Source: Nocardioides sp.
GTDB taxonomy: Bacteria > Actinomycetota > Actinomycetes > Propionibacteriales > Nocardioidaceae
Reading direction: 5' to 3'
Length of the DNA stretch: 32,816 nt
Assembly: GCA_025936915.1 (NCBI GenBank)
Contig: JAICSK010000009.1
Location: forward strand, 1 to 32,816
Both the position numbers and the translations under genes were made by a program. Positions 3,504 through 21,439 of this stretch are shown in pieces. The notes beneath the pieces are model-generated. The model saw nothing but the letters and a program-made list of their open reading frames with translations. It was not told the DNA's origin and did no database searches. Numbering within the stretch: the first letter of the stretch is position 1; each line of letters opens with the position of its first letter.

Positions 3504-5048
3504 ATGCGGACCGCGCTCCGGGCGCTCCGCAGGATCGCGGTCGGGCTGCTGTTCGTGAGCGTCCCCTTCGCTGCCGCGCTGGTCGCCGTCCGGGTGGCGC
3601 CCGCGACGCACGTGGACATTGCGGGCCAGCCGGTCGCGGTGAAGCCGGTCCTCGGGCAGGACACCAGCCGGCTGCAGGACGGCGCGCTGATCCGGCCCGA
3701 GCACGCGCATCTCGGCCTGCTGGACACCGATGTCGGGGTCGACATCTCAGCAGACTGGAACCGCCTCATCCCGAGCGACAAGCAGACGCGGCAGTACCTC
3801 CAGGCCCTGTGGGACGACCCGAAGCCCGAGATCGTCCGGATCCAGCAGGCGGCACGCCACTACATGATCGGCTGGAGCCTGACCGGGTTCCTGGCGGGTG
3901 CGGTTCTCTCCGGCGGCGTGGCCGTGCTGCTGCGCGAACGCCGGCGCCGGCTCGCGGCGTACCCACCCGACCAGGCCGAGCTGATCGCCTCCTACAACCG
4001 GCGCCTCCGCACCGGGATGGTCGCCAGCGGAGTCGCCGGCGCGCTCCTTCTCGACGCCGCCGGGCTCGCGACGTATCTGCACCGCGACCACCACGTGGTC
4101 GCCAGCAGCCCGGTCTTCGCCGGTACGACCCTCGAGGGCACCGAGGTCAACGGGCTGATGGCAGAGGTGCTGCCGTTCCTGTCGATCCTGCGCCCCCGGG
4201 ACACGTTCTACGAGACGGTGGCCGACAATCTCACGGCGGCACTCGCCCATCGCGAGGACCTCCGGCCCCGGGGCGACCGGATGACCTTCGTGGTCGCCGA
4301 GGACTTCGAGGACGTCAACGGGATGGCCCGGCAGGTGGGGCTGGCCGCCAAGACCCTGGGCGCCGACTTCGTCGCCCTCACCGGCGACCTGACCTTCGCC
4401 GGCAAGCCGGTGGAGAGCTACATCATCGACACCGTCAACTACTACTCCGGCAACCTGCCGGTCTACTTCGCGCCGGGCCTGCACGACACCGAGGCGATCG
4501 TGCAGGCGGCTCGCGCCCGTGGATGGCACATCGCCGACGGACAGACCAGCACGGTCGACGGCCTGACCCTGCTCGCCGCCGCCGACCCCCGGATCTCGCG
4601 GGTGGGCGACTTCGGCGTCGGTGACGTCCTGCGCGACCGGAACGTCGACATCGGCACGTTCGTGCAGCAGACGGTCGAGGAGGCGTGCGCGACCCACCCG
4701 GACTTCGTGCTCCTGCACGACCATCTGCTCGGCCAGCAGATCGCGGCGTCCGGGTGCCAGCAGGTCGCGGTGATCGACGGCCGCTCCTACCAGTTCCTCG
4801 GTCCGCGCCAGGTCAGGACCAGCGCCGGAGGCGTGGCCTACGAGCTCACCAACGGCAGCGCGGGGGGGCACACCACCACCGAACCCGACCCCGGCAACGT
4901 CCAGCACCCCGCCCGGTTCGCGATCATCACCTACTCACCGCGGCACCAGCGCACGGAGTACGCCGTCGTGACGGTCTACCCGGATGCGTCGGTGACCGTC
5001 TCGCACCGGGCCGGTCTCGACGTGCCGTTCGCCGCGGCCGGGGGCTGA
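3504..5048 (+). CDS. Membrane-anchored metallophosphoesterase-like protein
   Basis: N-terminal TM segments, then VAEDFEDVNG...DFVALTGDLTFAGKP...VYFAPGLHDTE...LLHDHLLG, a calcineurin-like phosphoesterase pattern. GTG at 3489 is an alternative start. Confidence 0.72.
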   Translation: MRTALRALRRIAVGLLFVSVPFAAALVAVRVAPATHVDIAGQPVAVKPVLGQDTSRLQDGALIRPEHAHLGLLDTDVGVDISADWNRLIPSDKQTRQYLQALWDDPKPEIVRIQQAARHYMIGWSLTGFLAGAVLSGGVAVLLRERRRRLAAYPPDQAELIASYNRRLRTGMVASGVAGALLLDAAGLATYLHRDHHVVASSPVFAGTTLEGTEVNGLMAEVLPFLSILRPRDTFYETVADNLTAALAHREDLRPRGDRMTFVVAEDFEDVNGMARQVGLAAKTLGADFVALTGDLTFAGKPVESYIIDTVNYYSGNLPVYFAPGLHDTEAIVQAARARGWHIADGQTSTVDGLTLLAAADPRISRVGDFGVGDVLRDRNVDIGTFVQQTVEEACATHPDFVLLHDHLLGQQIAASGCQQVAVIDGRSYQFLGPRQVRTSAGGVAYELTNGSAGGHTTTEPDPGNVQHPARFAIITYSPRHQRTEYAVVTVYPDASVTVSHRAGLDVPFAAAGG

Positions 5049-5066
5049 CCGCTGCTTCGGCAGTAC

Positions 5067-6509
5067 TCAGTAGGACTGTCCGGGGTGGTAGGCGCACGCG
5101 TCGGTGTCGTCCTGGGCCGGAGACGACGTGTGCCGCCGGTGCTTGACCGGCGGAGCCAGCGCCTTCTGCACGACCTGGTGCATGTAGTCGAAGTCGGGGT
5201 CGTTCGGGTTGAACTGGTCGCTGATCCGGAACAGCACCGACTTCGCCCGGTGGTCCTTGGCCTTGAGCGCGAGCTTGACGAAAGCCGGCAGCAGCTCCTT
5301 GGGGATGTCGGTCTTCACCACCTCGCTGCCGGCGGCGGCGAGGGCGTTGTAGCGGCGGAGCAGGTTCACCGGGTTGGCCTGGTCGATGATCGCGTTGACC
5401 ACGCAGCGCTGGCGGGCCATCCGCTGGTAGTCGTCGGCGCCGTACCGTCCCCGCGCGTACCAGAGTGCGTGGAAGCCGTCCAGGTGCTCGTTCGGCCCCG
5501 GCTCGATGTAGGCGGTCGGTGGGATGTGGGCGTCGGTCTGGCCGTTGATCGCCACCGGGATGTTCACGTTGACCGTGACGCCGCCCATGGCGTCGACGAG
5601 CCGGCGGAACCCGTCGAAGTCGACGAGCACGTAGTAGTCGACCTTGAGCCCGGTCGCGCCCTCGACCGCCTGCTTGATCGCGTCGGCGCCCTCGTCGGCG
5701 GACGTGCCGAGGATGTGGGGATGCAGGATCGGCACCTCGCGGTAGACCGCGTTGAGCATCCAGGAGGCCGGGTCGCCGGGACCGGTGAACCCGTCGGGGT
5801 ACGCCGCGTGGAGCGGGCTCGAGTCCGGGAACGGCACGTCGGCCAGGTTGCGCGGCAGGCCGAAGGTCACGGTGCGGCCGGTCCTGGTGTCGAGCGAGGC
5901 CAGGATCATCGTGTCGGTGCGGGTGCCCTCGCGATAGGGACCGGAGTCGCCGCCGAGCAGGAGGACGTTGACCCGGGTGCGTCCGTGCCAGGGGTCCTCG
6001 GGGGTCACCGACGGGCGGGTCGCCGTCGCGTTGTGGGTGAAGACCTTGTTCACGACGTGCACCTGGGCGAAGGCGTCCCGGACGAGGAGCCCGACCGGCG
6101 CGACCACGACCAGGCACAGCGCGCAGACGAAGGCGCTCCCGCCCAGCACGTGCGACCGGCGCGGTGCGGGTTTCGGGCACAGTGCGACGAACGTGCCCAC
6201 GACCACCGCCACCCACAGCGCCAGGCACACCGTCGTGAGCACCGCGGCGCGGGCGAGCCCGGACGGGTCGACCGCCAGGTCGATCGCGGACCTCAGGTTG
6301 TGCGGAGCGGCGATCGCCAACCACACCAGGCCGAGGACGGTGGCCAGCAGGACGACGCCGCCGAGGCGCCGCCTGCGGTTGTGCAAGAACCCGGCCCCCG
6401 GGACAAGCGCCGACAGCGCGGTCCATCCGACCGCCTTGAGCACCGACGAGCAACGGTGCGGACCCGCCTTGCGGCGCCCGGGCTTGACGCCGTACGGCGG
6501 CAGCGACAT
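5067..6509 (-). CDS. LCP (LytR-CpsA-Psr) family protein with multi-TM N-terminus
   Basis: NVLLLGGDSGPYREGTRTDTMILASLDTRTGRTVTFGLPRNLADVP...GFRRLVDAMGGVTVNV...GFHALWYARGRYGADDYQRMARQRCVV are LCP-domain motifs; ATG at 6509. Confidence 0.92.
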   Translation of the reverse strand: MSLPPYGVKPGRRKAGPHRCSSVLKAVGWTALSALVPGAGFLHNRRRRLGGVVLLATVLGLVWLAIAAPHNLRSAIDLAVDPSGLARAAVLTTVCLALWVAVVVGTFVALCPKPAPRRSHVLGGSAFVCALCLVVVAPVGLLVRDAFAQVHVVNKVFTHNATATRPSVTPEDPWHGRTRVNVLLLGGDSGPYREGTRTDTMILASLDTRTGRTVTFGLPRNLADVPFPDSSPLHAAYPDGFTGPGDPASWMLNAVYREVPILHPHILGTSADEGADAIKQAVEGATGLKVDYYVLVDFDGFRRLVDAMGGVTVNVNIPVAINGQTDAHIPPTAYIEPGPNEHLDGFHALWYARGRYGADDYQRMARQRCVVNAIIDQANPVNLLRRYNALAAAGSEVVKTDIPKELLPAFVKLALKAKDHRAKSVLFRISDQFNPNDPDFDYMHQVVQKALAPPVKHRRHTSSPAQDDTDACAYHPGQSY

Positions 6510-10261: not shown

Positions 10262-11134
10262 GTGGCCGTCGCTGCCCCACCCCGGACCCGCGCTCGTGAG
10301 CGAGCGGACCGGGCCGAACGCACGCAGGACGTGCTCGACCGGATGGAGCGGGCCGGCGTCCGGGCCAAGGACCGGCTCGTCGACGAGCTGATCGACGTCA
10401 ACATGCCGGTCGCGGAGTCCATCGCCGCGCGCTACCGCCGCCGCGGGATCGCTGACGAGGACCTCCGCCAGGTGGCCTACCTCGCGCTCGTCCGGGTCGC
10501 GCACAGCTTCGACCCGACGCGCGGGCACGACTTCCTGTCTTACGCCGTGCCCTCGATCCGGGGCGAGGTACGCCGCTACTTCCGCGACCAGGGGTGGATG
10601 GTGCGCCCGCCCCGTGGGATCCAGGAGATGCAGGCCCGCATCGCCGCCGTCGAGTCCGACCTGTCCACCCGCCTCGGACATCCGCCGTGCGCCGACGAGA
10701 TCGCCCAGGAGTTGGGCGAGCCGGTCAGCGACGTCCTGGAGGCGATGGCGGCCAACGGCTGCTTCACGCCGACGTCGCTCGACCAGGCCACCCCGTCCGA
10801 GACGTCGTCGATCCTCGACCAGCTCGGCGAGGAGGAGGCGGGTCTGGACGCCGCAGAGGCGCGGGTCCTGCTGACTCCCCTCGTACGGCGGCTGAGCGAG
10901 CGTGATCGCAAGATCCTGGAGATGCGCTTCTTCGCGCAGTGCACGCAGCAGGAGATCGCGGACGAGATCGGTGTCACCCAGATGCAGGTGTCACGACTGC
11001 TGAGCGGGCTCCTCCTTCGGCTCCGGGCCGATCTCGAGGCTGCCGACGTACCGCCTGGGGAGGACCCTCGGGCGGAGAGGGTCATCGGGGGGCCGATGAC
11101 CGGCTCGGATGGACCTCCACCCGACCAGGCGTGA
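10262..11134 (+). CDS. SigB/SigF/SigG family RNA polymerase sigma factor
   Basis: Sigma-70 region 2 (RRRGIADEDLRQVAYLALVRVAHSFDPTRGHDFLSYAVPSIRGEVRRYFRDQGWMVRPPRGIQEMQ), region 3 and region 4 (RDRKILEMRFFAQCTQQEIADEIGVTQMQVSRLLSGLLLRLR); GTG start with GAGAGGAC upstream. Confidence 0.93.
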   Translation: MAVAAPPRTRARERADRAERTQDVLDRMERAGVRAKDRLVDELIDVNMPVAESIAARYRRRGIADEDLRQVAYLALVRVAHSFDPTRGHDFLSYAVPSIRGEVRRYFRDQGWMVRPPRGIQEMQARIAAVESDLSTRLGHPPCADEIAQELGEPVSDVLEAMAANGCFTPTSLDQATPSETSSILDQLGEEEAGLDAAEARVLLTPLVRRLSERDRKILEMRFFAQCTQQEIADEIGVTQMQVSRLLSGLLLRLRADLEAADVPPGEDPRAERVIGGPMTGSDGPPPDQA

Positions 11135-14294: not shown

Positions 14295-14612
14295 TCAGGA
14301 GCGCGACGGGTCGCCGAGCAGACTGCCCAGCGGCCCGAGATCGAGGTTGAGGTCCTCCTGGGTCAATCCGAACCGCTCTCGGAGGTCACGCATCGCCTCG
14401 GCCAGGTGCATCAGGCCCGAGCCCAGGGCCTCGATCTGGTCGTCGGTCAGGTCGCCGTCGTCCAGTCGGCGCAGGGCCTGCTTCTCCATCAGCTGACGGA
14501 CCAGCTCCACGATCGTGAGCACCAGCCGCATCAGGTCGCGCTGCAGGTGCTCCGGGTCGGTCTCGAGCCGCTCGGGCAGCCCGCGCACGCGCACCAGCGG
14601 ATCGTCGTTCAC
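14295..14612 (-). CDS. gvpK: Gas vesicle protein GvpK
   Basis: RLETDPEHLQRDLMRLVLTIVELVRQLMEKQALRRLDDGDLTDDQIEALGSGLMHLAEAMRDLRERFGLTQEDLNLDLGPLGSLL is a GvpK signature; GTG start overlaps the upstream stop. Confidence 0.95.
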   Translation of the reverse strand: MNDDPLVRVRGLPERLETDPEHLQRDLMRLVLTIVELVRQLMEKQALRRLDDGDLTDDQIEALGSGLMHLAEAMRDLRERFGLTQEDLNLDLGPLGSLLGDPSRS

Positions 14613-14815
14613 GACCGGTCCCCCTCGTCTCGCACCGTCCGGATCAGCGCGCGGAGGCGGACCTCCACCAGGTCGACGCCGGACAGCGAGATCAGGATGT
14701 CGCCGGAGAGCACCACGCCGGTCCCCAGCAGGCGGTCCAGCAGGTCGACCAGGGCTATCGGCGGCCCTGGGGGTGGCGAGGCGCGTTCGACGGTCGCCGC
14801 GGACGAGATCGTCAC
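14609..14815 (-). CDS. gvpS: Gas vesicle protein GvpS (GvpA/J family paralogue)
   Basis: IALVDLLDRLLGTGVVLSGDILISLSGVDLVEVRLRALIRTV is the GvpA-family core; GTGA overlap with gvpL. Confidence 0.85.
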   Translation of the reverse strand: MTISSAATVERASPPPGPPIALVDLLDRLLGTGVVLSGDILISLSGVDLVEVRLRALIRTVRDEGDRS

Positions 14816-15612
14816 GGTTCCTCCAGGATCGCGAACGAGTACGGCGGCCACGGTCCGCGCGCGTCGATCAGCACCTCACGGTGGTCGCCGGTCAGGTCCC
14901 CCACCGCGGCGGCGAACGCGTCGGACAGGTCCCGCGGCACCAGGTAGGCCACGTTGTGCACCATGGTCCCGGCGTGTCCGGTCAGGCGGGGATCCTGAGG
15001 TGGGAGCCGACGGCTCGCCGCCGCGAGCCCGACGAGGGCGTCGTGCACCTGCTCGGCGGCGACGTGCGCGTCCCGCTGGTCGTCGTCCCGGGCCTGTCGT
15101 GCCTCCTGGCGGCGTCGCAGGTACTCGGCCCCCGAGCTCGCCGGAGTCGTCGGCGGCTCGTCGTGGGTCCGGGTGAGCACCTTGACGCTCCACTCCTCGT
15201 GGCCCTCGACCCGGTCGAGGACCGCGGAGATCCGATCGTGCTGCTCGGCCAGCGTGCGTCGTACACCGTCGTCGTCGCGAAAGACCGTGGCCAGCCGCAT
15301 CGGCGCGGTCGGAGCAACCGCGGCGGCGGCCTGTACGACGGCGTCGTGGCCCCGGGCGGCCGTCTCGAGCCAGTCGAGACGCTCGAGGTTGTGCCGCAGG
15401 CCCTCCTCGCCGTACTCGTCGAGGTCGACCGAGCTGACCAGCCCGACGAGACCGTCGACCTCCACCGCCTCCACGTCTGCGTCGCCGAGACCGAGCAGCC
15501 CGCCGAGCGCGTCGAGGTCGAGGCCCCGGGACACGGCGTACAGGTAGCGGCCTCGGGAGGCCGGCGTCTCGGCCGGAGCCCCGGTCGTCTGCTGGGCCGT
15601 CTGCTCAGCCAC
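14812..15612 (-). CDS. gvpL: GvpL/GvpF family gas vesicle protein
   Basis: GRYLYAVSRGLDL...VSSVDLDEYGEEGLRHNLERLDWLETAARGHDAVVQAAAAVAPTAPMRLATVFRDDDGVRRTL...GPWPPYSFAILEEP. Confidence 0.93.
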   Translation of the reverse strand: MAEQTAQQTTGAPAETPASRGRYLYAVSRGLDLDALGGLLGLGDADVEAVEVDGLVGLVSSVDLDEYGEEGLRHNLERLDWLETAARGHDAVVQAAAAVAPTAPMRLATVFRDDDGVRRTLAEQHDRISAVLDRVEGHEEWSVKVLTRTHDEPPTTPASSGAEYLRRRQEARQARDDDQRDAHVAAEQVHDALVGLAAASRRLPPQDPRLTGHAGTMVHNVAYLVPRDLSDAFAAAVGDLTGDHREVLIDARGPWPPYSFAILEEP

Positions 15613-15940
15613 CGCCCGAGCCTCCTCCCGCCTCGAGCTCCTCCACCCGCTGCCGCAGCTCGTCGTTCTCCTCGGCCAGGCCGCGTTCCCTGACGGTCAG
15701 CATCGGGTCGTGCCGCCACCAGTCGATGCCCATCTCCTCGGCCTTGTCGACCGAGACCACGAGCAGGCGGATCTTCACCGTCAGCAGCTCGATGTCGAGC
15801 AGGTTCACCCGGATGTCACCGGCGATGATGATGCCCTTGTCGAGCACCCGCTCCAGGATGTCGGCGAGGCTGGCCGGGTTCGGCCGGTCCTGGTACGCCA
15901 TGACTCCCGCTGCCGGGTGGGAGAGGCCGGACTCGCTCAT
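15605..15940 (-). CDS. gvpJ: Gas vesicle protein GvpJ (GvpA family)
   Basis: ASLADILERVLDKGIIIAGDIRVNLLDIELLTVKIRLLVVSVDKAEEMGIDWWRHDPML is the GvpJ form of the GvpA fold. Confidence 0.92.
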   Translation of the reverse strand: MSESGLSHPAAGVMAYQDRPNPASLADILERVLDKGIIIAGDIRVNLLDIELLTVKIRLLVVSVDKAEEMGIDWWRHDPMLTVRERGLAEENDELRQRVEELEAGGGSGGG

Positions 15941-15942
15941 GA

Positions 15943-16470
15943 CTACTCGTCTCCGGGCGACCCACGCAGGTACCGGTGCACCCGGCGATACCCCTGGAGC
16001 TCGCCCTGCTCGTCGAGGCGTACCTCGTAGGTCGCCATCACGTCCGTGGTGCTCGGGATGCGCTCGAGCTCGAGCACCTCGACCGCGACCCGCCAGCCGT
16101 CCTCAGACCGCTCGAGGGCGGTGACCGACTCCGGCACCCGGCCGGTCAGGCCGAGGACGATCTCTCGGGCGGCACCCGCCATCTGCCCACCACTCGACGG
16201 CGGACGCTGTGATCCGGACCCGGAGTCATGTCGCGTCCGGGACGTCTTCCGGGCCGGGGCCGCCTTCGCGGCGGCGGTCTTCCTGCCCGGCGAGCTCGTG
16301 GCAGCGGAGCTCTCCGTCGCAGGGCGCGTTCCCGTCCTCTTCGTCGGCGAGCTCGTCGACGACTTCTTGGTCGCCTTCTTCGTGGACTTCCTGGTCGCCT
16401 TCTTCGAGGTGGACCGCGTGGAGGCGGTCTTCTTCGAGGCCCCGCTCTTCGAGGCGGTGGTGTCAGCCAT
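15943..16470 (-). CDS. gvpO: Gas vesicle protein GvpO with long basic low-complexity N-terminus
   Basis: C-terminus AREIVLGLTGRVPESVTALERSEDGWRVAVEVLELERIPSTTDVMATYEVRLDEQGELQGYRRVHRYLRGS is GvpO; N-terminus is K/S/T/A-rich. Confidence 0.93.
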   Translation of the reverse strand: MADTTASKSGASKKTASTRSTSKKATRKSTKKATKKSSTSSPTKRTGTRPATESSAATSSPGRKTAAAKAAPARKTSRTRHDSGSGSQRPPSSGGQMAGAAREIVLGLTGRVPESVTALERSEDGWRVAVEVLELERIPSTTDVMATYEVRLDEQGELQGYRRVHRYLRGSPGDE

Positions 16471-16714
16471 GACGCTCCTCTCGCAACTGCCGACCGAGCA
16501 GCAGCCGCTCGACCAGCGCATCCTCACGCGCGGTGGCCTCGTGCTCGCTGAGGTCGCCGGCGGCCCGCCTGGCGTCGATCGCCTCGAGCTCAGCGCGGAT
16601 CGTCACCGGGTCGTAGAACTGCTCCTCGGCCTGCTTGCGTATCTGCTCCGCGATCGCCACGACCCCCCGCAACGGCGCGACCGGTGCGGTGAGGATTCCC
16701 GTCAGCAGACCCAT
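16463..16714 (-). CDS. gvpG: Gas vesicle protein GvpG
   Basis: [76 protein letters not shown] overlap with gvpF. Confidence 0.93.
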   Translation of the reverse strand: MGLLTGILTAPVAPLRGVVAIAEQIRKQAEEQFYDPVTIRAELEAIDARRAAGDLSEHEATAREDALVERLLLGRQLREERHG

Positions 16715-17460
16715 CAACCGGTCCCGACGAAGTCGTAGGGGGCCATCGGTCCGGCCAGCCGGAAGTGGAGACGTCCGGCCGATTCCGCGGCCATGTGCTC
16801 GAGCCGGTCCTCGACCTCCTGGGACCGTTCGGATTCCACGAGCAGGGCGAGGTCCAGCACCGAGCCGAGCCCCGGCTCGCGGCGCACCCGGTGGGTGGTG
16901 AGCATCGGTACCAGCTCGGCCAGGATGCGATCGGCGTCGGCCCGCGCCCAGCGTTCCCACGACTGCGTGACGAGCTCGCCCAGCCGGATCCGGTCGCCGA
17001 CCAGGGCGTCCTCCGGCAGGTCGCGGGTGGCGGCCCGCAGCTCCCGCACCCGAGGGTCGGCCTCGGCAATCTCGGTGAGGACGGTCTCCTCGACGAAGGT
17101 CACCCGCAGGTGGTACTGCCGGCGTCCCTCCACCTCCCCGAGCTGCCGCGCCAGGTCGTCGGCGTACGGCGCCAGCAGGTCGTGGACGAGGACGTCGTCG
17201 TCGGGCACGACCGTGCCGAACCGCATCGGCGCCACGGCCCCGCCCGGCACGAGCGCCTCGACCACCGTGCTGTACGCCGTGAGGTCGGCGCGCCGACCGT
17301 TCGGCCGGTCGTCCGACACCCGGCCGACGACCGCCGCCACGGGCCCGTGGACCACGAGCTCGAGCGGACCGTCGTCGACCCCGGTCACGTCGGGCAGCTC
17401 GTGGTCCGGCCGGACCACGGCGTACACGAACGTCGCGGTGTCCTGCTGCGGTGGGGTCAT
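16714..17460 (-). CDS. gvpF: GvpF (GvpL/GvpF family)
   Basis: [21 protein letters not shown]...[34 protein letters not shown]...[18 protein letters not shown] overlap with gvpA. Confidence 0.93.
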
Positions 17461-17900
17461 CGGCTGGAGCTACGCCGTCGGGAGGACGATGATGAGGAGG
17501 ACGACCGGCGCCGGCGCGGACGCTCGTCGTCGTCGTTGTCCTCGTCCTCGTCGTCGTCGCCACCGCCGGTCAGCGCCTTCTTGGCTCCCTTGACCGCGCC
17601 GCCGACCTTGCCCGCGGCACCGCTCTGCTGCATGTCGTGGATGAAGTCGGGCAGCTCCCTGCCGCCACCGTGCTCGACGAGGTCGAGCCGGTTGGTGGCC
17701 TCCGCGAACCGGAGGTAGGTGTCGACGCTGGCGATCACGATCCGGGCGTCGATGGTCAGCAACTCGATGCCGACGAGCGACACTCGCACGTAGGCATCGA
17801 TCACGATGCCCTTGTCGAGGATGATCTCGACCACATCGGCGAGGCTGCTGGGCGCGGGGCGATCGAGGTAGCCGCCACCTCGATGGGCTTGCACGGTCAT
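17457..17900 (-). CDS. gvpA: Gas vesicle structural protein GvpA with acidic then Arg/Ser C-terminal tail
   Basis: [50 protein letters not shown] is the canonical GvpA core; tail [33 protein letters not shown]. Confidence 0.93.
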
Positions 17901-17924: not shown

Positions 17925-19076
17925 TCAGCTCGCACGACGGCGGGTCCGGGGCTCTTCCTCGTCCTCGGGCTCGTCCTCGTACTCGTCCTCGGGCTCGTCC
18001 TCTTCCTCGTACTCGTCCTCCGGCTCGTCCTCCGGCTCGTCCTCCGGCTCGTCGTACTCCTCCTCGGCCTCATCCTCCGGTTCGTCGTACTCGTCCTCGG
18101 GCTCGTCCTCGGACTCGTCCTCCGGCTCGTCCTCTTCCTCGTACTCGTCCTCGGGCTCGTCCTCTTCCTCGGGCTCGTCCTCGGCCTCGTCCTCGAAGTC
18201 CTCGTCGGCCTCGTCGCGGGGCTCGTCGTCGCCCTGCTCCTCGTCGTCCTGGGCCTCGTCCTCCTCCGCCTGGGCCTCTTCCTCCTCGACGACCTCGTCG
18301 TGGGTCTTGACCACCTCGCCGTCCTCGATGACTCCGCGCCAGCCCTCGATCTCGTCGGCCTCGAGGATCGCCCGCGTCATCACGTGACGCTTGAAGTGGC
18401 GGAGGTCGGCGCGGGCGCGACGTCCCTGCGCCCGCCAGAGGTTGCCGGTCTTCTCGAACAGCCCCTGTGGGTAGTACTCGAGCACGACCATGATCCGGGT
18501 CAGGTTCGGTCCGATCTCGTGGAACGTGACCGCTCCGTCGACGTGCCCCTTCTCGCCCTTGGACCGCCACACGATCCGCTCGTTGGGGATCTGCTCGAGG
18601 ATCGTGGCCTCCCAGGTGCGGTGGGAGAGGAAGATCTGCGCCTTCCACTCGATCGTGGTCTCGTCCTCGGCCTCGGCCTTCTCGACCTTCTTCATGAACG
18701 ACGGGAACTCGCCGAACTCGGTCCAGGTGTTGTAGGCGACGTCGATCGGGACACCGACGTCGATGGTCTCCAGGATGTTGGTGGACTTCGTCGCCTTGGA
18801 GCCGCCGCCACCGCCGCCCTTGCCGGTCACGGCGTCCTTGACGCCCGAGCCCAGGCCCTTGAGCGCGCCCATCACGGGCGAGCCGCCGTCCTTCTTGGCC
18901 TTGGCGCCCTTGACGGCGGCCTGGGTGAGCGGCCCGCCGTCGGCGATGCCCTCGAGCCGGTCGGTGAGCCCACCGAGCCGCTCGCCCGCGGTGTCCATCA
19001 CCTTCTCGCCGGCGGCCTTCAGCAGGCCACTGCCGGCAGCCTTGAGACGATCCATCGCTTCGGAGTTGGCAGCCAT
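17925..19076 (-). CDS. SRPBCC (cyclase/dehydrase-like) protein with long D/E-rich tail; gas-vesicle-operon accessory
   Basis: STNILETIDVGVPIDVAYNTWTEFGEFPSFMKKVEKAEAEDETTIEWKAQIFLSHRTWEATILEQIPNERIVWRSKGEKGHVDGAVTFHEIGPNLTRIMVVLEYYPQGLFEK is an SRPBCC domain; then over 100 residues dominated by EDEPEDE repeats. May correspond to the accessory gvpY/gvpZ genes of Streptomyces-type clusters (from memory, unverified). Confidence 0.88.
   Translation of the reverse strand: MAANSEAMDRLKAAGSGLLKAAGEKVMDTAGERLGGLTDRLEGIADGGPLTQAAVKGAKAKKDGGSPVMGALKGLGSGVKDAVTGKGGGGGGSKATKSTNILETIDVGVPIDVAYNTWTEFGEFPSFMKKVEKAEAEDETTIEWKAQIFLSHRTWEATILEQIPNERIVWRSKGEKGHVDGAVTFHEIGPNLTRIMVVLEYYPQGLFEKTGNLWRAQGRRARADLRHFKRHVMTRAILEADEIEGWRGVIEDGEVVKTHDEVVEEEEAQAEEDEAQDDEEQGDDEPRDEADEDFEDEAEDEPEEEDEPEDEYEEEDEPEDESEDEPEDEYDEPEDEAEEEYDEPEDEPEDEPEDEYEEEDEPEDEYEDEPEDEEEPRTRRRAS
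17940..18300. repeat. Degenerate short tandem repeat encoding E/D/P/Y-rich tail
   Basis: Iterated CTCGTC/CTCGGGCTCGTC/GTACTCGTC blocks on the + strand. Confidence 0.8.
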
Positions 19077-19080
19077 GTCG

Positions 19081-19932
19081 TCACTTCCTCGCGCTACTGG
19101 TCTTCTTGGTGCTCCGTCGGCCGGAAGACTTCTTGGCCGCGGACTTGGTGGCGGGTGCCTTCTTGGCGGTCTTCTTCGCCGTCGAGCCCGTCTTCTTCGC
19201 GGTCGAGCCGGTCTTCCGGGCGGTCGAGCCCGTCTTCCTCGCGGCAGAGCCCGTCTTCTTGGCCGCCGAGGCCGTCTTCTTCGCGGTCGAGCCGGCCTTC
19301 TTCGTCGCAGAGCCCGTCTTCTTGGCCGTCGAGCTCGTCTTCTTCGCGGTCGAGCCGGCCTTCTTCGCGGTCCGGCGCCCGGTGGAGGACCCCGCGCTCG
19401 CGGACTTCCTGGCCGTGCGCTTGGTCGCGCGCTCTGACGCCCGGCCGCTGCTGGCGGCGCGGCGCCGCGGCGAGGAGGCTGCGGCCGTACGCCGCCGTCG
19501 TCGAGGCGCCCGGTCCTCCTCGGCTTCCTCGTCCGCTTCCTCGTCCGCTTCCTCGTCCGCTTCCTCGTCGTCGTCCGCGCCCTCGTCGGCCTCGTCGTCG
19601 TACTCGTCCTCGTCCTCGTCGTCGTACTCGTCGTCGGCGCCGGGCAGCGCGGAGAGCGAGTCCGTCATCGATTCCAGGCGTGAGGTGGCCGTCATGATCG
19701 CTGCGTCGCGCGCGGCGTCCAGGAGTCGGCCGGTGATCTGGCCCTTGAGCTTGCTCAGCTCGGGGTTGGCGTCGACGAGCTTGTTGCCCTGCGCGAGCAG
19801 GGCCTGGGGGTTCGTCGCGATGCGCTGCCCGGCGAGCAGGCCACCCACCGTGACGGCGAGGCGCAGCTTCTTCATGCGACCGAGCAGGTATCCCGCTGTC
19901 ACACCCAGAGCGATCTTGGTGGTTGCTGACAT
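19081..19932 (-). CDS. Gas-vesicle-operon accessory protein with acidic tract and histone-H1-like AKKTGST repeats
   Basis: MSATTKIALGVTAGYLLGRMKKLRLAVTVGGLLAGQRIATNPQALLAQG N-terminus, then DDEYDDEDEDEYDDEADEGADDDEEADEEADEEADEEAEED, then about ten AKKTGST-type heptads; start ATG 19932 rather than 20007. Confidence 0.82.
   Translation of the reverse strand: MSATTKIALGVTAGYLLGRMKKLRLAVTVGGLLAGQRIATNPQALLAQGNKLVDANPELSKLKGQITGRLLDAARDAAIMTATSRLESMTDSLSALPGADDEYDDEDEDEYDDEADEGADDDEEADEEADEEADEEAEEDRAPRRRRRTAAASSPRRRAASSGRASERATKRTARKSASAGSSTGRRTAKKAGSTAKKTSSTAKKTGSATKKAGSTAKKTASAAKKTGSAARKTGSTARKTGSTAKKTGSTAKKTAKKAPATKSAAKKSSGRRSTKKTSSARK
19163..19374. repeat. About ten 21-bp tandem repeats (AKKTGST heptads)
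   Basis: Repeated GTCTTCTTCGCGGTCGAGCCC-like units on the + strand, translated on the minus strand as AKKTGST/ARKTGSA/TKKAGST. Confidence 0.85.
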
Positions 19933-20000
19933 GTCGGTGACAAGCTGCCCTGGCCCCGACAGGCACGAGTGGAGCAGCTCCCTCCCTTCGAGACATGCCG

Positions 20001-20025
20001 TACCCACTCCCTACGACCTTGAACG
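20001..20025 (-). promoter_or_regulatory. Candidate SigB/SigF-type promoter of the gas vesicle operon
   Basis: Minus strand reads CGTTC-N15-GGGTA, the -10 element about 69 nt upstream of the ATG at 19932. Confidence 0.5.
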
Positions 20026-20068
20026 CACCTCGGCGATCGTTCGGGCGTGTCGCGGGTGGCCGTCCCAG

Positions 20069-20398
20069 TCAGCGACCGGGCCAGAGGTCCAGCGCCGCGA
20101 TCCCGCCGGCCACGATCGCGCTGACCAGTGCGGTACGACGATGGCTGGGCCAGTGGGCGGCCACCGGCAGCATGCTGGCGGCATGGGTGAGCTCGACGAC
20201 CACATCCAGTGCGCGGGTGCGCCGACCCACGACGAGGTCGGCGGTTGCCTGGAGGACCAGGCGTACTCCCAGCAACCGGGTGACGACCTGGGTCGCCGGG
20301 TCGTCCCGGTCCGGGCTGCCGACCGCGGCCAGGACGCCGCGCGGACTCGTCAGGCAACCGACGCCGAGTCCGAGCCGGGCGCCCGGCGCGGCTCTCAC
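20069..20398 (-). CDS. Hypothetical small membrane-associated protein
   Basis: LLGVRLVLQATADLVVGRRTRALDVVVELTHAASMLPVAAHWPSHRRTALVSAIVAGGIAALDLW; hydrophobic segments, GTG start. Confidence 0.65.
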   Translation of the reverse strand: MRAAPGARLGLGVGCLTSPRGVLAAVGSPDRDDPATQVVTRLLGVRLVLQATADLVVGRRTRALDVVVELTHAASMLPVAAHWPSHRRTALVSAIVAGGIAALDLWPGR

Positions 20399-20419
20399 GT
20401 CGGCGTCCTCATGGACGAC

Positions 20420-21439
20420 TCATCGACGCAGGACACGAGCAACCACGGCCGCACCGGCAAGCAGCCCGACTCCTGCTCCCACGAGGCCGTGGTGCTGCGA
20501 GGCCCAGACCTGCAAGGACCGGGGGTGTGACCGGTCGTCGAACAGCCCGTGTGCCCCGAAGTCACGTCCACCCGCGCCGTCGGCCGGTTCCCAGAGGTTG
20601 GCCGGCTGGTCGGGCGGTTTCGGGGAATCGGTCTGCTGCCCGTCGAAACCGGTGCGCGCGAGGTAGCGATCGAGCAGCCCGGGAGCCACCGCGTTGGCGA
20701 GCAGCGTCGCTGCCGTCGTACCGCCGACCCAGTACTCGCGGCGCTCCGGGTGGTCCGCGGCGTACACCACGGCTCCGGCAGCGACCTCCGGCTGGTAGAT
20801 CGGCGGCACCGGCTGCGCCTGGCGTGGGAGTCGAGAGAGCACCCAGGAGAACTGCGGCGTGTTCACCGCCGGCATCTGCACCATCGTCACCTGCACCCGG
20901 CTCCCGTCGTGGAGGAGCTCGGTGCGCAGCGACTCGTGGAAGCCCTGCGTCGCGTGCTTGGCGCCGCAGTAGGCGCTCTGCAGCGGGATGCCGCGATAGG
21001 CCAGGGTCGACCCGACCTGAACGATCGTGCCGCGATCGCGCGGGAGCATGCGGCGCAGCGCGGCCCGGGTGCCGTTCACGAAGCCGAGGTAGGTGACCTG
21101 GGTGACCCGCTCGAACTCCTCGGGCTCGATGTCGACGAACCGCGCGAACACCGACGTGAAGGCGACGTTGACCCACGTCCCGATCTCGCCGAGCTCGTCC
21201 TCGATCTGGTCGGCGACCTTCTCCACCGCGGACGCGTCGGCGGTGTCGACCGGGTAGACGCCGGCCGTCCCGCCCAGCGCCTCCACGTCGGCGCGTGCTC
21301 CGGCCAGGCCCTCCTCGCCGCGCGCGAGCAGCGCGACCGTGGCACCGCGCTCGGCGAACAGCTTCGCGGTCGCCCTGCCGATGCCTCCCGACGCCCCGGT
21401 CACCACGACGACGCCGGGGACCTGCGAACCGCCGCTCAT
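20420..21439 (-). CDS. SDR family oxidoreductase with C-terminal hydrophobic segment
   Basis: VVVTGASGGIGRATAKLFAERGATVALLARG...STLAYRGIPLQSAYCGAKHATQGFHESLRTEL; C-terminus GLVGAGVGLLAGAAVVARVLRR. Confidence 0.93.
   Translation of the reverse strand: MSGGSQVPGVVVVTGASGGIGRATAKLFAERGATVALLARGEEGLAGARADVEALGGTAGVYPVDTADASAVEKVADQIEDELGEIGTWVNVAFTSVFARFVDIEPEEFERVTQVTYLGFVNGTRAALRRMLPRDRGTIVQVGSTLAYRGIPLQSAYCGAKHATQGFHESLRTELLHDGSRVQVTMVQMPAVNTPQFSWVLSRLPRQAQPVPPIYQPEVAAGAVVYAADHPERREYWVGGTTAATLLANAVAPGLLDRYLARTGFDGQQTDSPKPPDQPANLWEPADGAGGRDFGAHGLFDDRSHPRSLQVWASQHHGLVGAGVGLLAGAAVVARVLRR

Follow-up and report, generated by a model that had tools for sequence, protein, structure and literature searches.

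The window, by which we mean the whole stretch of 32,816 nucleotides of DNA of a soil Nocardioides sp. that was analysed, carries a series of closely spaced genes on the minus strand that opens with the ATG at 19932 and consists of a gvpT-like gene, an SRPBCC gene and gvpA, F, G, O, J, L and K (Table 1). The original prediction had assumed a gas vesicle operon at this place, and the Pfam matches confirm it: homologues of gvpA, F, G, O, J, L and K lie in one co-directional run, as is characteristic of an actinobacterial gvp operon. The gvpT-like gene itself has no Pfam match. Relatives begin at the codon equivalent to ATG 19932 (ATGTCAGCA in L107, L108 and L163), which supports this start; an alternative GTG start at 20007, with which the -10 element would fall inside the coding sequence, was rejected for the same reason.

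Table 1. Features of the window that are discussed in the text
Feature	Position	Strand	Basis or remark
gvpK	14295..14612	-	Pfam
gvpL (GvpL_GvpF family)	14812..15612	-	Pfam
gvpJ/gvpA-like	15605..15940	-	Pfam
gvpO	15943..16470	-	Pfam
gvpG	16463..16714	-	Pfam; domain at residues 290-354 of a longer ORF
gvpF (GvpL_GvpF family)	16714..17460	-	Pfam
gvpA, structural shell protein	17457..17900	-	Pfam
SRPBCC (Polyketide_cyc) protein, gvpZ-like, acidic tail	17925..19076	-	Pfam
gvpT-like, first operon gene; N-terminal hydrophobic segment, Lys/Ala-rich tail	19081..19932	-	orthologue in the equivalent position in relatives
Predicted gvp mRNA 5' leader, with potential hairpin GAGCTGC .. GCAGCTT	19933..19992	-	sequence, folding; nearly identical in L163
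Predicted transcription start	19988..19995	-	from spacing only, 5-12 nt 3' of the -10
Putative -10 element GGGTAC	20000..20005	-	sequence; matrix score; kept in relatives including the closest relative L163
Putative -35 element GTTCAA (core GTTC 20021-20024)	20019..20024	-	sequence; matrix score; columns G-T-T-T-G in 26 Nocardioidaceae promoters
Upstream reading frames	20069-20398, 20420-21439	-	same strand as the gvp operon
Probable SigB/SigF-type sigma factor (the genome has three)	10262..11134	+	regions 2, 3 and 4; TIGR02980

The site ahead of the operon

On the minus strand, positions 20025-20001 read C GTTC AAGGTCGTAGGGAGT GGGTA, and the next base, at 20000, is a C. A spacer of 15 nt separates GTTC (20024-20021) from GGGTA (20005-20001), and the distance from the start of the -10 element to ATG 19932 is 73 nt, so the motif that had been claimed at about 70 nt before the first ATG is indeed there. 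GGGTAC fits the -10 consensus GGGTA(C/T) of the SigB/SigF family, and the spacer is within the 14-16 nt range of the GTTT/GGGTA promoters of this family. In the -35 element, for which the family has GTTT or GNNT, GTTC agrees with GTTT in three of four bases and fits less well than the GTTT that most relatives have.

To avoid circularity, the scoring matrix was derived only from 24 promoters of the S. coelicolor SigB family in Table 2 of PMC8346170. With this matrix the site reaches 13.2 bits, the highest score of all positions on both strands of the 32.8-kb window, and a p-value of 0.004, where p-values were calculated for each locus against 1000 random windows of the same length from the same locus. 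We were not able to find a sigma-70-type promoter or a terminator in the region 19850-20420.

A motif scan of the genome had been proposed as a check, and its outcome did not favour the prediction. GTTY-N14-17-GGGTA occurs 43 times in the 3.4-Mb genome, no more often than the same boxes at the wrong spacings N21-24 (49) and N7-10 (42). Since right and wrong spacings are equally frequent, a single site of this form is non-significant by itself, and we discarded the genome-wide count as a proof of a promoter. GTTC is frequent in the G+C-rich coding DNA of this genome, and across the genome the GTTC form is no commoner than expected by chance. In the same lists, the GTTT form alone is found 10 times at the right spacing versus 1 (N21-24) and 5 (N7-10). 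For example, on contig C240 a hemerythrin gene lies about 50 nt 3' of a perfect GTTT-N15-GGGTAC site. A hemerythrin gene is also on the list of the M. smegmatis SigF regulon (PMC4694148); this common element is suggestive, no more.

The GTTY counts speak for the alternative that the motif matches by chance only, in DNA rich in G+C. The operon would then be read from another promoter or by read-through from upstream, and two reading frames on the same strand do precede it (Table 1). What bears on this alternative is the occurrence of the site in other genomes.

Conservation ahead of gvp operons

We located the same operon in relatives and searched 200 nt of sequence upstream of the gvpT-like start. 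Of the 17 upstream regions of the first set (Nocardioidaceae and two Jiangella), 9 contain the strict motif G[AT]T[TC]-N14-16-GGGTA, compared with a mean of 0.09 for dinucleotide shuffles and none on the reverse strand. In a second set of 16 new Nocardioidaceae loci we found the strict motif in two (0.07 expected) and a relaxed pattern, which had been defined after inspection of the first set, in six (0.65 expected). Not every gvp locus of Nocardioidaceae thus has the strict motif; most of the second-set loci that lack it show, by reading, a GNNT-type -35 together with GGGTAC. Using the S. coelicolor matrix, the operon start has p < 0.05 in all 15 Nocardioidaceae loci of the first set and in 11 of the 16 loci of the second, and no other position of the locus outscores the upstream site in 7/15 loci (0.10 expected) and 4/16 loci (0.13 expected), respectively.

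When 26 Nocardioidaceae promoters are anchored on the -10, the information is concentrated in GTTTG and GGGTAC, and there is almost none in the spacer and the flanks; note that most rows were selected by the matrix, so that the conservation of the boxes is partly built in, while the flat spacer is unaffected by this. In L163, the closest relative, GGGTACGG is retained, yet the -35 is poor (GGAT at N15; p = 0.14), and at two further loci, L166 and L168, we found nothing convincing upstream of the operon. The upstream sequences of L111, a relative from the same genus, and of Nocardioides sp. CER19 (L056) are the same.

Some loci have GGGCAT or GGGCAC instead of GGGTAC as the -10, both among the Nocardioidaceae (L113, L115, L117, L170) and in Microbispora (L055, L061, L066, L070-L072, L084, L087, L101, L103). 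These variants of the -10, as well as GTGT and GTTC in the -35 of relatives, have precedents among published SigB/SigF-family promoters (PMC8346170, PMC4694148); GGGCA and GTGT, for instance, are both found among the M. smegmatis SigF promoters in Table 1 of PMC4694148.

Beyond the Nocardioidaceae, 24 of 35 other actinobacterial gvp loci have p < 0.05 with the S. coelicolor matrix against random windows, and in 10 of the 35 the upstream site tops the whole locus (0.27 expected); some of the sets include closely related genomes (Microbispora, Nocardia, Rhodococcus), whose loci are not fully independent. Equivalent sites are found in Jiangella, Microbispora, Rhodococcus, Actinoallomurus and others. 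In one neighbouring family (f3) the motif is absent from the 200 nt ahead of gvpT. Eight of its nine loci have extra genes before gvpT, and GTTT-N15/16-GGGTAC stands ahead of these added genes. In the ninth, L188, no ORF of at least 40 codons intervenes, and the distance from the site to gvpT is about 200 nt. The site is thus present in 9/9 loci of this family, as the best score of a 1.5-kb upstream scan whose range was set after the matches had been seen, and it is the top of the locus in 8/9. In a further family (f4), which has a different gene order, we found no motif at gvpT, nor ahead of gvpO where this was scanned.

As to the added genes, a gene for a small helical protein lies between the SigB-type promoter and gvpT in L180-L187, and a gene for a DUF6458-type membrane protein does so in seven of these eight loci, L180 being the one in which it was not seen. 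A similar small protein precedes gvpT in L110 and apparently also in the Jiangella loci L049 and L102.

The two boxes are conserved at matched spacing ahead of orthologous gvp operons. Since many related bacteria have this motif ahead of this gene cluster, it is very probably a real promoter of a stress sigma factor. We regard a chance match combined with another promoter or with read-through as very improbable: the site recurs at the 5' end of the operon in dozens of genomes whose spacers are unlike each other, it stands ahead of the added genes in family f3, and there is no sigma-70-type match nearby.

We are thus rather confident that positions 20024-20000 of the minus strand are the promoter of a gvpT-Z-A-F-G-O-J-L-K operon, read by a sigma factor of the SigB/SigF family and triggered by stress; that the operon is transcribed from this site, where transcription starts, which sigma family is involved and what the trigger is are all inferred from the sequence. 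Under stress, such a sigma factor would be freed from its anti-sigma factor, RNA polymerase with the freed sigma would read the promoter, and transcription would begin near 19990 and continue through the tightly spaced genes.

The leader and the choice of sigma factor

Potentially, the promoter could be real and the main control could still be post-transcriptional, acting through the leader between promoter and ATG with its GAGGGAG and hairpin. GAGGGAG followed by a hairpin is common in the gvp leaders of Nocardioidaceae, those of the window and of L172, L173, L174, L109, L114, L164 and L167 being examples. Several leaders are more stable than their shuffles (L172, z = -2.8; L173, z = -3.4), we noticed, by inspection, compensatory base changes in the hairpin among L172, L173 and L174, and the leader is nearly identical in the window and in L163. 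On the other hand, the leader of the window itself folds no more stably than its shuffles (z = 0.01), and no Rfam family is above the gathering score in the gvp leader. The leader is a possible cis-regulatory RNA, and we find it improbable that it exerts the main control. With support that is partial, we set it aside as a main finding.

If the operon is controlled at the promoter, the next question is which sigma factor reads it. The gene at 10262-11134 had been taken for a SigB-family sigma gene, and this assignment is probable: regions 2, 3 and 4 are all found in its product, which scores 221 bits with TIGR02980, just under the cut-off of 234 bits. It is flanked by genes for a HAD hydrolase and a GAF-ANTAR protein, and a matrix scan of the window found no SigB-type site ahead of it. 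A search of the organism's own genome yields three sigma factors of the SigB/F/G type; the one in the window is about 58-59% identical to that on contig C149 and about 38-40% identical to that on contig C40. Just upstream of the SigF-type sigma gene on contig C40 there is a HATPase_c_2 (RsbW-like) gene. A HATPase_c_2 protein is the usual partner of a SigB/F sigma factor. The region upstream of this sigma gene, the best SigF-type one, also contains a nickel superoxide dismutase-like frame (L130, 1464-2475, with the RsbW-like gene).

The original prediction had implied that the sigma factor encoded in the window and the gvp promoter belong together. Such a dedicated pair would agree with the distance of only 9 kb between sigma gene and promoter, and with the SigB-type genes near the gvp operon in two other loci, about 0.5 kb ahead of it on the same strand in L110 (about 5030-5864; Nocardioidaceae) and about 5 kb ahead in Jiangella L049. 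Among the other gvp loci examined for linkage these are the only two, and with three cases in all we rejected linkage as a rule. Most of the other gvp loci lack a linked SigB-type gene, the genome has two other sigma factors of this type, one of them beside an RsbW-like gene, and the SigB homologues of S. coelicolor overlap widely in promoter recognition (PMC8346170). A specific pairing is therefore unlikely in our view, and the sigma factor of the window is a possible reader of the promoter that we do not favour. Because the S. coelicolor homologues cross-recognise many promoters (PMC8346170), the sequence cannot choose among the sigma factors; the most likely candidates are the SigF-type factor of contig C40, whose gene has a HATPase_c_2 gene beside it, or several SigB homologues that overlap in the promoters they recognise.

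Relation to known promoters and stress physiology

The gvp operon of S. coelicolor (SCO6499-6508) is described as SigB-dependent and salt-induced in passages of PMC6629963 and PMC5733086 that cite Lee et al. 2005. The present operon is similar in that a gas vesicle operon is linked to SigB, the dependence being here only predicted. It differs in gene order: the S. coelicolor operon starts with gvpO-gvpA (PMC5839063), whereas here gvpT-Z precede gvpA, and it belongs to another family. The promoter itself is close to those of the S. coelicolor SigB homologues (GTTT/GNNT ... GGGTAY), since GTTCAA, a 13-nt spacer between the hexamers and GGGTAC are all within Table 2 of PMC8346170. It also resembles the M. 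smegmatis SigF promoters (GTTT-N14-19-GGGTA), one of which, that of MSMEG_2958, is exactly GTTC-N15-GGGTA, and the expression of this gene falls in a sigF mutant (Table 1 of PMC4694148). Unlike here, the SigF regulon genes noted in that table are not gas vesicle genes. The promoter class and the stress output that had been predicted are well supported by the conservation across species and by the SigB dependence stated in those passages of PMC5733086 and PMC6629963, with the reservation that the -35 is a weaker match than GTTT.

In the papers searched, all outside subscription journals, we found no earlier report of this promoter in Nocardioidaceae. As the S. coelicolor operon is already stated to be SigB-dependent in the passages cited above, the predicted promoters extend a known link from Streptomyces to further families. 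On balance, we think it probable that in many actinobacterial families the gvp operons form a conserved component of the SigB/SigF general stress regulon, with the promoter kept at the 5' end even where extra genes precede gvpT.

With a SigB-type promoter kept before the gvp operons of several families, an observation in one genus becomes a general rule that can be tested, and experimenters are pointed to conditions that should switch the gvp genes on. According to one paper (PMC6629963), gvp genes are widespread in actinobacteria, yet functional gas vesicles have not been reported from them, and a part in the general stress response has been suggested. If the operons do belong to the stress regulon, the gas vesicle proteins of actinobacteria would act in stress physiology and not in buoyancy.
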